64,000 nucleotides of DNA from Otis tarda (Eukaryota; Chordata; Aves; Otidiformes; Otididae). The position numbers and the translations under genes are program-made. Location: contig CM048552.1 in assembly GCA_026413225.1 (NCBI GenBank), forward strand, positions 187,150,053-187,214,052. Direction: 5' to 3'. Shown in pieces: positions 13,222 through 17,224 of the stretch. Below the pieces are notes generated by a model. The model saw nothing but the letters and a program-made list of their open reading frames with translations. It had not been told where the DNA came from and did no database searches. How positions within the stretch are numbered: position 1 is the stretch's first letter; every line of letters starts with the position of its first letter.

Positions 13222-13369
13222 GCGAAAAGCTGCTGAGATGTAGTGGATGCTCCTGAGAAGGCTGTGACTCTCCATCTGTAAAGCTGTGTTGACAATGTCT
13301 CCAAACAAGCGGCATTTTTTCATCAACAGCCCCAGCCAGCACTGGTCCAGAGCGGATCCCAACTCTAAT
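13222..13369 (-). pseudogene. GUCY1B2: GUCY1B2 relic, cyclase-domain C-terminal part with an 8-nt deletion
   Basis: Reads IRVGIRSGPVLAGAVDEKMP in one frame. In another frame it continues CLFGDIVNTALQMESHSL and HYISAAFR. The family has KMPRYCLFGDTVNTA, so the Arg-Tyr region has lost 8 nt, shifting the frame. The bases before ATT (Ile) are CTG rather than the CAG expected of an acceptor. The only AG nearby (ATTAG) would move the splice and change the frame. No donor follows AFR. About 75 bases further on, an acceptor-like tract precedes RAVIQQG, a possible trace of the last exon. Confidence 0.88.
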
Positions 13370-14288
13370 CAGTCGGTAAGAGTCAAAAAGGAAGTGTGAT
13401 ACATCATACCAGCTTCTCATTGTCACTACGTAGAATATTTAGCAGTCCTTCTTGAACAACCATGCCGTGCACAACCTTGAACAGACTGTACCCCACCTCC
13501 CATTCTAGGGACTAAATAACAACTTATTCCTCTGCAGGAACCCATGCACTCGCTTGCAGAAACAAGGGTATAGCCTTGGGCTGATGACAGGGAGTGCATT
13601 GTTTGTAAGGAGAAGAGGATGATGACATGTAGCGGTTTAGCTACTTTCCCTATCTTGTGACTGTCACACTAGTGACAGTAATTGGCAGAAGAGAAGAAGG
13701 GATTACAGCCCCATTGCACCCATGGCAAGCATCACTTTGGAAACCCCTCCACTGAACTGTTCTCTCCTTCTCATTAGCCAACACCCTAAAGTCTGTGTTC
13801 TGTGTGAGTATAATTAATGTTGTGCTTTTGTAATTTGTCAATAAAGAGTTTTAAAATTGCATATTTTCAATGAACAATTTAATGAATGCCCTTGTAAAAG
13901 TAGCTCTTACAAGCAAGAAGTAAGGGCAAAATAAATCATCACATCAATTATTTTGTGTCTGTGTGTGAGTTACTAAATGACTCTCTAGTTATCCCTAAGC
14001 ACAAACACTGATAGAGAAAGGGTTTGCTTCATTTCTTTAAATTGTCAGTGAATGATTACTTGGCTATTGTTAAATGCATGTTTTGGCACATTACCGGATT
14101 CTGGATTGCAAAGTTCTCCCCATCTGAAATTAAAGCCCTACAGCCTAAATTCAGCACCGCATTTAACATGAATACTGACCTGAAGTTAGTGTGTTAACCT
14201 TCACTGGAACTTGAGATTTTGCTTTAATATCTATCGATATAGATAGATACCGACATCTATTTCAAAGCAAGAATTTAGTGATCCCTAC

Positions 14289-14406
14289 CTGAATGGAGTC
14301 CTCAGTCACAGGGTTCATGATCTCTTCGGAGGCAACTTCCATACCGAATGCAAGATTGACTACTCTTAGTGCATAGAAGTTTCATTTTCTGTGATCACCA
14401 CAGGTT
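14289..14406 (-). pseudogene. GUCY1B2: GUCY1B2 relic, cyclase-domain exon with its 5' half lost
   Basis: The 3' half reads ALRVVNLAFGMEVASEE and IMNPVTEDSIQ, ending exactly at a donor (CAG|GTAGGG, 14288 downwards), like the family RVANFALGM...NPVTG.PIQ. Upstream the frame breaks, with a TGA in the continuing frame. The strongly conserved ETIGDAYMVVGG stretch expected ahead of it is not visible before the acceptor-like AAACAG at about 14407. The neighbouring intron contains a CCAA repeat (14445-14464) and A-rich sequence. Confidence 0.82.
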
Positions 14407-14444
14407 CTGTTTGATTAGACAGAAGAAAGCCCATCACAAAAATA

Positions 14445-14500
14445 AACCAAACCAACCAACCAACTAAACAAAACCACCTCCTTCTCCAAAAAAAAAAAAC
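14445..14500 (+). repeat. CCAA microsatellite and A-rich tract
   Basis: ACCAACCAACCAAC-type units (14445-14464) followed by AAACAAAACC and a run of A. It sits in the remaining intron between two GUCY1B2 relics, where conserved exon sequence is missing. Confidence 0.75.
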
Positions 14501-14535
14501 CCTCAAACCACCACAGAAAACAGTAATAGAAACAC

Positions 14536-14684
14536 TTTATAAACTCTATGGACATTGCCTACTCAATCAAACTTGGAATACATTGAATTCAACATGTTCA
14601 CTGTTTGGATGGGCTCACAGGCAGAGCAGATATTTGTGAATGTCACAACATCACTGAAGGGTACTATGCAGGAATCAAATTCTC
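14536..14684 (-). pseudogene. GUCY1B2: GUCY1B2 relic, cyclase-domain exon with an in-frame TGA
   Basis: Begins after the acceptor CTTCCTCAG and continues the previous exon in phase (VDAG|EFDSC). It reads FSDVVTFTNICSACEPIQ, then VNMLNSMYSKFD, then TGA where the family has Arg (a CGA to TGA change would explain it), then VGNVHRVYK. This is the best-kept relic. The Asp of the FSD motif, a metal-site position in class III cyclases, survives. The family TILF preceding it is IVPF here. The 3' end lacks a convincing donor (AAAGTGTTT). Confidence 0.92.
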
Positions 14685-15970
14685 CTGAGGAAGAAGTCAG
14701 CTCTTAGATGTACATTTCTTCATAAAGACTTCTATTCTTATTTGACTAAGTCAGTAACAGACTTTGACAACATATTTCTGTAACTTGCCAAAATCCTATT
14801 AATTGATTTAGTAGCTGAAGAAAAGCTCCCTGTAAGCACAGGAAAGACTCCCATCTTTCCCTGTTTGGTAGTTGAATTACACTGAGGTGTGTGTGATGTG
14901 GACATCTCACTTCCAACTTTCTTTTGACATCCCAATCTGAGTATGCTAATATCCTCAGCCATGCTGGACAGAATTTGCATTGTTTCTATTCTGTTTACAG
15001 ACAGGATTTTTCAGAAGAAATGCAAGTGCCTAGAATCACAGAGCAGACCTTGTGCTAAACAGCAGGATGGGACCAAAGAAAACTTGCATGTTGTGTTGCG
15101 GAGGTGTGCTGTAGAGTCACAGACTGACAAGTTGGGGACCTGCTAACAAGATACTTCAGCTCCTTTCCCACTCAGTGATTTTTTTCTGCCTGTGGAAAGC
15201 ACTGAGCTGGGGTGGGGTGGGGAGAAAAGGGAGATAGTGCACTGTGGAGTTGAGAAGGGTGAGGATGCAGATCTGCACCCAGGAATTAAGGAGTACTCTT
15301 GTGCCTCCCAGTTTAGCCATAATCAGAGGATGTCTTTGAACCTCTGTTTTCACTGAAGAATTAAATGTGTAAATTTGCAGAAGTAACTTCAAATTCATGG
15401 TCACCGTTTTGTGCAGTTAAGTTTGGAAGCTTAGAGTTCTGATGCAAATAGACAAATGCAAAGAGGGCAGCAAATTACACGAGCTAAGTGAGGAGCAGTC
15501 AGACACCTCTGACTCCAGGGGCTAAAAAGTGCTTGTTTAGCAAGTGTTGGATGGGACTTTGCTGAGTTGGTTTATTCCAGATTGAAACTAAAGCAATATA
15601 CATGCCACAAATGCCCTCATTTTCTGTTGTGAACTACTTCTACTCCTACTCCTACTTCTTCATAAGAGGGTTCTCTTTTGAAAAGCTTTGTATCAGTGTT
15701 ACTCAGGCATGAATTTACGATGCAGCTCTCATAGCTGGGGTTCCTAGGCAAGGCCTATTCTTCATGTGCAGCCATCTGTTCCCCATCATCATAGCTGTAA
15801 AGATCCCTGATGATGCTTGTATGCTCTGGGTGTTGTAATTCATCACGTAGAGAAAAAGTATACCTTGGGATTGCTCTGGTAAATACGCTGTTACAAAGGG
15901 AGCTGCAACATTTAAGACCAGACATACCAGCAGAATAATAAGCACAGGCAAAGGAAGGAACCTGCAGTAC

Positions 15971-16285
15971 CTGCATCCACCTTCTTACTTTCTTTAAGCT
16001 GATTCTTTAATCTTCCTTAAGCTGATATGTTTCAGCAGCATGGTATACAGTAAGGTCTTTATCTTTCCTGCCTCCAAATTCTTGGAAAAGATACTGAGCT
16101 CTTCCTTTTTCCTCTCCAACTGATTTGAAAGCTCTGTCTCTGCCAAGTGCCACTGGTTCATCAGGGTAAGGTCCTTGTCGCATCATGAGGTGCAATGTCA
16201 GGAAGTTGCATCTTCAGCTCCTCTAGTTGGGGAAGCACAAGTACATCATGCACTGCATGGACTCCATCCAGATCATCCATCTCTT
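15971..16285 (-). pseudogene. GUCY1B2: GUCY1B2 relic, regulatory-domain end and coiled-coil linker, multiply frameshifted
   Basis: Four family blocks appear in order but in different frames: MIWMESMQCMMYLCFPN; then LEELKMQLPDIAPHDATRTL; then LMNQWHLAETELSNQLERK, continuing through KTLLYTMLLKHISL; then NQLKESKKVDAG. A working exon would read all of these in one frame, so at least three indels separate them, and a TAG follows the first block. The donor GATGCAG|GTACTG at 15970 is intact and leaves phase 1, which fits the next relic. The linker block would have formed the dimerising coiled coil ahead of the cyclase domain. Confidence 0.88.
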
Positions 16286-17131
16286 ACATAAAAGCACAAG
16301 CCAATGACTCTACCAACGCATATATTTTTCTCCTTTACACTTCTCAACTCATGGATTAGTTTGTGACAGAAACAACACAATCTAGCAATCCCTAATATTT
16401 TTTTAGATGCATCTAGTAGTACTTGTCCCAACATACTGAGACACTTGGGAAGGAAACCTGCAATAATAGGCTGGTATAAACAACTGAGTAAAGCCTCCTG
16501 CACAGGCTGAGGTACAACCGTGGCCCCCTCTCATCACACTCCCCTGCAGAGACAGTTATACCTCATTCATCCACAACACTGTGCTCTCTCCTTGTCCTAG
16601 ATGCAGACAATCAGCTCCCCAATGAATTTGCGACAGCATCTGGACACGGAATAGGAGAAAACCACAATTAGCCATCTAGAAAGACCTCTGTACACTCAAA
16701 AGGCTAGCTAGGAACCATATCCCACCCTTGCTGTAACCCATCATCTCCAATCCCTGTCCTATGACACAACAAATGCAGGACTTGTTTCATAGAGCGGAAT
16801 CATAGACACCTGGAAGGTTTTCCAGACATTTTAAAAAACAACTGTCATCTTCATGGGAAGATGGACAAAGTGTTCAAAAAAAAAAACCATTAGGAACAAG
16901 GATGGAGCTAACATGATTGTAATGATATATTAATGAAAAGATTTTAAAATATGTTTGTTGGCAAACCATCTTTGAATCACTTTCTGTATCACATTTCTTT
17001 TTCTATAAAGCATACATTCACAAAAGCTTAAGTTGCTTAATTTTTGTTTGTTAGTTTTGGGTTTGTTGGGGTTTTTTTCTGTCCTCTCTTCTTCTTGCTT
17101 TCATTCCAGAAAGAGAGAAGTAAAAAGATAC

Positions 17132-17224
17132 CTCTGAGTTTCAGCATGGCCTGGTTTCTCCTTGATTTAGATGAATTTTCTCCTCTTGTTTTAAGAAGAA
17201 AAGTCGATGATGCATTTCCTCCTG
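17132..17224 (-). pseudogene. GUCY1B2: GUCY1B2 relic, end of the H-NOX-associated domain
   Basis: Reads FLLKTRGENSSKSRRN and then QAMLKLRG, matching the family block before the conserved GQMIWMES segment. The donor AGAG|GTATCT (17131 downwards) and the acceptor TTTCAG (above 17224) are intact. The 5' part (RRKCII, near the family RRFIN) reads in another frame from FLLKTR, indicating a small deletion. Nearby sequence is unrelated intron. Confidence 0.75.

Follow-up and report, generated by a model that had tools for sequence, protein, structure and literature searches.

The window analysed here is a 64,000-nucleotide stretch of the Otis tarda genome (bases 187150053-187214052 of contig C1, CM048552.1, in assembly GCA_026413225.1, which has 1,198,220,595 bases in 116 contigs). 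Its minus strand carries, between 27484 and 6687, 13 segments of the gene for the soluble guanylate cyclase beta-2 subunit (GUCY1B2) in gene order, and this relic is very probably the decayed orthologue of the C13orf42-linked GUCY1B2, the gene known in mouse as Gucy1b2, still at its ancestral place. Crocodile and turtle GUCY1B2 proteins compared with the window by tblastn gave collinear minus-strand matches from 27484 down to 6690, the best of which (14688-14533) shows 78.8% identity over 52 residues and scores 89 bits (E 1.3e-20), whereas the best match per query in the controls, the reversed window and five triplet shuffles, reached 19.6-28.1 bits. The same piece is recognized by Pfam as Guanylate_cyc (45.8 bits) when its single TGA is read through. 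A frameshift-aware alignment with permissive penalties against a profile of ten proteins returned 31 segments, of which 13 (577 codons) were kept and 18 short ones, some within CR1 elements, were dropped as chance matches. Among the kept codons, 355 of 577 are identical to turtle and 345 of 577 to crocodile. Exons 4, 6 and 14 are weak taken singly, and their assignment rests on order and position. At the two ends of the relic, a splice-acceptor AG precedes the motif YGFIN and a terminal TAA stands at the homologous place. Introns are retained, and the relic is therefore not a processed copy.

A first-pass annotation, made from the letters of this DNA, had named GUCY1B2 and described a multi-lesion pseudogene, without giving a strand, as five exon relics in order within 13222-17224 that carry lesions in nearly every exon, and had proposed a frameshift-aware alignment such as the one above. 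The identification and the diagnosis of decay both hold, given the match scores, stops, frame changes and lost splice sites. The interval corresponds to exons 12 to 9 and the final 93 of the 217 nucleotides of exon 8, that is, four exons and part of a fifth of a larger relic, and all five are damaged: exon 8 by two frame changes, exon 9 by three, exon 10 by a stop, exon 11 by a missing stretch, and exon 12 by a frame change and splice losses.

In the relic as a whole, the alignment shows four stops, in the kept segments 21113-20925, 18319-18212, 14685-14533 and 10452-10329, and eight frame changes, near 22425, 17280, 17210, 16229, 16173, 16004, 13311 and 10397; beyond these four stops there is one in exon 1, and there are others in the frame of exon 6. 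Splice dinucleotides are kept at 19 of the 22 sites scored, a set that leaves out exons 2 and 3, the acceptors of exons 6 and 14 and the donor of exon 13; those lost are the exon 4 acceptor and both the acceptor and the donor of exon 12. Exons 2 and 3 were not found between 27405 and 22481, where the best match (20.0 bits) is on the wrong strand and within the range of 40 shuffles (15.4-23.5). With these exons undetectable, the relic lacks an H-NOX domain with its proximal histidine, which we take to be the haem ligand. The catalytic domain is likewise interrupted, by a stop, a frame change, the missing GDAYM stretch and the lost splice sites of exon 12. With exons 2 and 3 undetectable, the GDAYM stretch gone, the reading frames disrupted and three splice sites destroyed, the relic cannot make the enzyme. 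Fragments of the 3' part of CR1 long interspersed elements occur in the window at 24131-24529, 26995-26786, 46634-46978 and 53341-52949, the first two where exons 2 and 3 belong.

The features are listed in the table below. Exon boundaries were set by comparison with a second GUCY1B2-family gene of this bird, paralogue B on contig C10, which is described further on. An extension of exon 10 beyond YKV, where a neighbouring VVV-like reading resembled the GGVP stretch, was dropped, since paralogue B has an intron there.

Table. Exon relics of GUCY1B2 and the neighbouring gene in the window (positions are those of the window)
Feature	Position	Strand	Remarks
Exon 1 relic (YGFINSCLKSLIIQNFGKEN*E)	27410..27484	-	splice sites (AG, GT) intact; TGA in frame
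Exons 2-3, expected stretch (haem-ligand part of H-NOX)	22459..27409	-	not detectable; two CR1 copies inside
Exon 4 relic (end of H-NOX domain)	22365..22458	-	frame change near 22425; no acceptor AG (boundary by analogy with C10 paralogue); donor GT kept
Exon 5 relic	20925..21113	-	one stop; two-codon gap; both splice dinucleotides kept
Exon 6 relic (ENKSYWDIVQSV)	20174..20265	-	in-frame stops; local duplication (by eye); donor GT kept
Exon 7 relic	18213..18321	-	one stop; splice dinucleotides preserved
Exon 8 relic (HNOBA part)	17132..17348	-	two frame changes; splice dinucleotides preserved
Exon 9 relic (linker and coiled coil)	15971..16280	-	three frame changes, also gaps; splice dinucleotides preserved
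Exon 10 relic (start of catalytic domain)	14536..14684	-	one TGA; splice dinucleotides preserved
Exon 11 relic, 118 nucleotides	14289..14406	-	catalytic GDAYMVVGG stretch missing; splice dinucleotides preserved
Exon 12 relic (catalytic domain)	13223..13369	-	frame change; neither acceptor AG nor donor GT remains
Exon 13 relic	10329..10450	-	frame change, also a stop; acceptor preserved
Exon 14 relic (variable C-terminal tail)	8308..8409	-	donor GT kept; weak match (E 0.04 with turtle, 2.3 with crocodile)
Exon 15 relic, last exon	6687..6814	-	acceptor AG kept; TAA at homologous place
C13orf42	35241..40200 (exons 40200-39787, 36446-36299, 35482-35241)	-	in-window control and synteny anchor

The surroundings of the relic are those of the ancestral gene. 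C13orf42 lies on the same strand 7.8 kb upstream, with an intact frame of 267 codons in three exons. With human proteins as queries, RNASEH2B was found in the left flank (five matching pieces) and FAM124A in the right flank (three matching pieces), which places the relic between RNASEH2B and C13orf42/FAM124A; we take the same order of neighbours to hold around GUCY1B2 at human 13q14. Database models from crocodile, alligator and frog (P0105, P0127 and P0135) fuse C13orf42 with GUCY1B2, so that the adjacency is old; these models are probably run-on gene predictions.

In phylogenetic trees the relic pairs with an emu gene model, P0262, inside the reptile part of a clade that we call A (support 0.998 in FastTree and 100 in a second tree); both are long branches, and some supports near the root may shift with re-rooting, such that only the main groups are relied upon. 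A second clade, B, contains eight bird proteins (from Pseudopipra, Horornis, Strix, Zosterops, Geospiza, Apteryx, Mesitornis and Tauraco), several of which are named guanylate cyclase soluble subunit beta-2 or GCYB2 and others only guanylate cyclase, together with crocodile P0239 and proteins from snakes, a skink, a frog and a shark. Both clades include proteins of crocodile, cobra, a skink and the frog Ascaphus, and the duplication therefore predates the sampled tetrapod groups. Support at the base is moderate (0.661 for clade A and 0.868 for clade B in one tree), and the lamprey protein is unstable, falling on the clade-B side in two trees and with clade A in another. A group of ray-finned fish proteins (for example P0175, P0190 and P0241) stands beside clade B (0.958), apart from the clade-A proteins of fishes, and some fishes also seem to keep both beta-2 copies.

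Paralogue B of this bird belongs to clade B and lies at C10:2610835-2624872. Its 14 segments, trimmed from tblastn matches, give 725 codons with no stop, a count that omits the piece 2611756-2611890 and the exon before YGFIN, which was not looked for; three of the matches show one TGA each, sited just past the exon ends, and the gene is apparently intact. Ten of 11 Strix pieces match it at 80-100% identity, while the eleventh (54.9%) runs through an intron. For the four catalytic-half pieces matched by both queries, identity to the C10 gene is 92.6-99.1% for Strix against 87.0-94.4% for Apteryx, and the tree joins the C10 gene as sister to the Neoaves sampled, though with weak support (0.732), which makes this bird most likely a neognath. 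Some 20 kb from the gene there is a run of exons that, among solved structures, matches DOCK10 best (278.7 bits, versus 215.4 for DOCK9), and FAM124A gave no convincing match within the 60 kb examined around the paralogue (best E 0.078). Between DOCK10 and paralogue B, at C10:2593351-2595921, there is a CR1-like element, possibly young, with an open frame of 857 codons.

The existence of an apparently intact GUCY1B2-family gene on C10 is what would be expected if the relic were a duplicated or processed extra copy that had died, with the true orthologue alive elsewhere in the genome. The first-pass annotation had regarded a second intact GUCY1B2 copy as an objection to a loss, and such a gene does exist; however, by the trees it is an ancient paralogue with its own locus near DOCK10, and the loss of the C13orf42-linked gene is therefore not refuted. 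In the tree the C10 gene falls with the proteins of Strix, Apteryx, crocodile (P0239), snakes, skink, frog and shark, apart from clade A, and both types occur together in crocodile, cobra, skink and frog; the relic, for its part, retains its introns and ancestral neighbours. Genome searches with turtle GUCY1B2 as query (scores computed for 60 of the 85 first-look candidates) and with Strix paralogue B (for 71 of 71) each found no other clade-A copy, assembly gaps aside, and besides the relic and other cyclases they returned only paralogue B on C10. A dead extra copy is consequently very improbable. Slightly less so, though still a slender prospect, is a locus that still yields a truncated protein or a non-coding transcript of some importance: the terminal stop and many splice sites survive, but the catalytic and haem parts are broken or missing, and no Rfam family reaches its gathering score anywhere in the window. 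The lesions were read from the assembly sequence, and they could be imagined as assembly or base-calling errors in a working gene. Such errors would have to account for lesions of many kinds across most exons, for missing exons and for substitutions at 42 of 163 invariant residues, in an assembly in which the neighbour C13orf42 and the C10 paralogue are clean, and we regard the chance of this as close to nil. Decay of the C13orf42-linked orthologue is the reading that we retain.

The age of the loss was approached through residues that are otherwise fixed. Across 49 non-bird proteins of clade A, 206 positions are at least 98% invariant, of which the relic covers 163 and keeps 121; as controls, three functional paralogue-B proteins keep 196/199, 145/146 and 178/180. 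Crocodile, alligator, turtle and tuatara keep all invariant positions, but helped to define the set. At 264 sites where the ancestral base can be deduced from the residue, the relic shows 31 transitions and 7 transversions, from which a K80 distance of 0.165 follows (bootstrap limits 0.115-0.231). If birds accumulate 1.2, 1.9 or 2.5e-9 substitutions per site each year, this distance corresponds to 138, 87 or 66 million years, or 46-193 million years with the bootstrap limits, figures that are made too young by the omission of exons decayed beyond recognition and too old by any changes that preceded the loss. We infer that the loss of constraint is old, roughly at the age of crown birds. The first-pass annotation had suggested that the loss is not very ancient, a view that about 0.165 substitutions per known ancestral site do not support.

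Searches of other birds extend this picture. No bird protein is among the best 120 of 752 matches, nor among the best 120 of 6541 (7964 candidates scored), where an intact, full-length bird orthologue would be expected near the turtle scores of about 1280 bits and the floor of the best 120 of 6541 is 1074. The latter search suggested that the whole GUCY1B2 family is absent from birds, an idea refuted when a search open to shorter proteins placed nine bird proteins among the best 120 of 170, eight of them paralogue B of clade B and the ninth the emu model P0262, the only clade-A bird in that set. This public gene model of Dromaius novaehollandiae looks like a patched reading of an apparently broken gene; it is itself degraded and keeps 113 of 170 invariant residues. 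Together these searches point to the absence of an intact clade-A copy across birds. Of the first-pass proposal of a loss in a bird lineage, the bird part stands, and restriction to a single subgroup is doubtful, the sole clade-A bird among the matches listed being the degraded emu protein. At 350 positions where crocodilians and turtles agree, emu and window have identical residues at 25 of 54 jointly changed positions, as against 11-13 expected under independent drift, although this count also includes bird-stem changes made while the gene still worked. The long stem of the emu and relic pair (0.160, against 0.061 for the crocodilian stem) was rejected as proof of early loss, as parallel transitions explain much of the sharing. 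With less confidence than for the age, we lean toward a single loss in the common ancestor of living birds.

Several observations weigh against so early and unitary a loss. The age depends on assumed substitution rates, and the 19 of 22 splice dinucleotides kept exceed the 15-16 expected under free drift at this divergence (P 0.06-0.12), which leans toward a somewhat younger date. This retention, together with the 92 of 112 invariant residues kept in exons 9, 10 and 12, is what would favour a recent loss limited to this bird's own family or order. Such a loss is nonetheless unlikely, given a divergence of 0.165 (0.115-0.231) that amounts to 61-122 million years at 1.9e-9 per year and 46-193 million years over the range of rates assumed, the degraded emu model in the same clade, and the lack of any intact bird clade-A protein among the best 120 of 752, 6541 and 170 matches. 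A good deal harder to set aside, and quite possibly correct, is the view that emu and this neognath lost the gene independently. The emu model shows none of the in-frame gaps of the window, and of the 14 invariant sites changed in both, emu and window have the same residue at 7, where 4.2-4.7 would be expected, an excess that is not significant (P 0.09-0.15); a loss before the emu/window split is therefore not established. Independent losses are opposed by the drift of the window, which alone fills roughly all of the time since the split (with assumed rates and an assumed split age), and by the excess of identical residues over the 350 positions, to which working-gene changes also contribute. 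A single loss before living birds diverged remains the version toward which we lean.

The most likely mechanism would be ordinary decay of the C13orf42-linked copy under relaxed constraint, with constraint lost at about the age of crown birds and the exons drifting ever since. A single loss in the common ancestor of living birds may have been tolerated because a beta-2 subunit could still come from the paralogue, and paralogue B may perhaps have taken over the job of the lost GUCY1B2. Its presence weakens the idea that this bird would lack such a nitric oxide or oxygen sensor altogether. A broader reading, whose chances we consider evenly balanced, is that the ancient beta-2 pair was sorted in opposite directions: birds would have lost the C13orf42-linked copy before diverging and kept the DOCK10-linked one, mammals would have done the reverse, and other reptiles would have kept both. 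The retrieved set holds no mammal in clade B, though no search was aimed at a mammalian paralogue B. If opposite sorting is true, the bird "GUCY1B2" is a hidden paralogue, and work on oxygen sensing in rodents does not transfer to it by orthology.

Within open-licence papers, we found no description of this bird loss or of the split into two paralogues. A long-dead bird orthologue, in a genome with an apparently intact DOCK10-linked paralogue, is a warning that gene names hide paralogy here. A table of RNA sequencing of chicken fat from 2015 reports "GUCY1B2" as differentially expressed (PMC4596860), and our guess is that the entry is the DOCK10-linked paralogue. The eight clade-B bird proteins (P0181, P0183, P0184, P0187, P0193, P0238, P0250 and P0267) are of the same family and similar domain layout, and their counterpart in this bird is the gene on C10; they are paralogues, and not orthologues, of rodent Gucy1b2. 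Emu P0262, a gene prediction known from its protein model alone, groups with the relic and is degraded likewise. In mouse, Gucy1b2 marks type B olfactory neurons, which are responsive to low oxygen (PMC6131590), and the bird case poses the question of whether the other copy is used in bird noses for this low-oxygen task or the task was dropped. Human GUCY1B2 is a pseudogene, and the gene is counted as functional in chimpanzee and bonobo and as non-functional in gorilla (PMC7555810). The human pseudogene and the relic are alike in being unitary pseudogenes of the same gene. The human case belongs to a primate loss that is late by inference, whereas the bird loss is independent of it, as the first-pass annotation had proposed, and looks much older; a second loss of GUCY1B2, probably far more ancient, is thus added beside the primate one. 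The mouse and rat genes are orthologous to the relic, intact in those rodents and broken in this bird.

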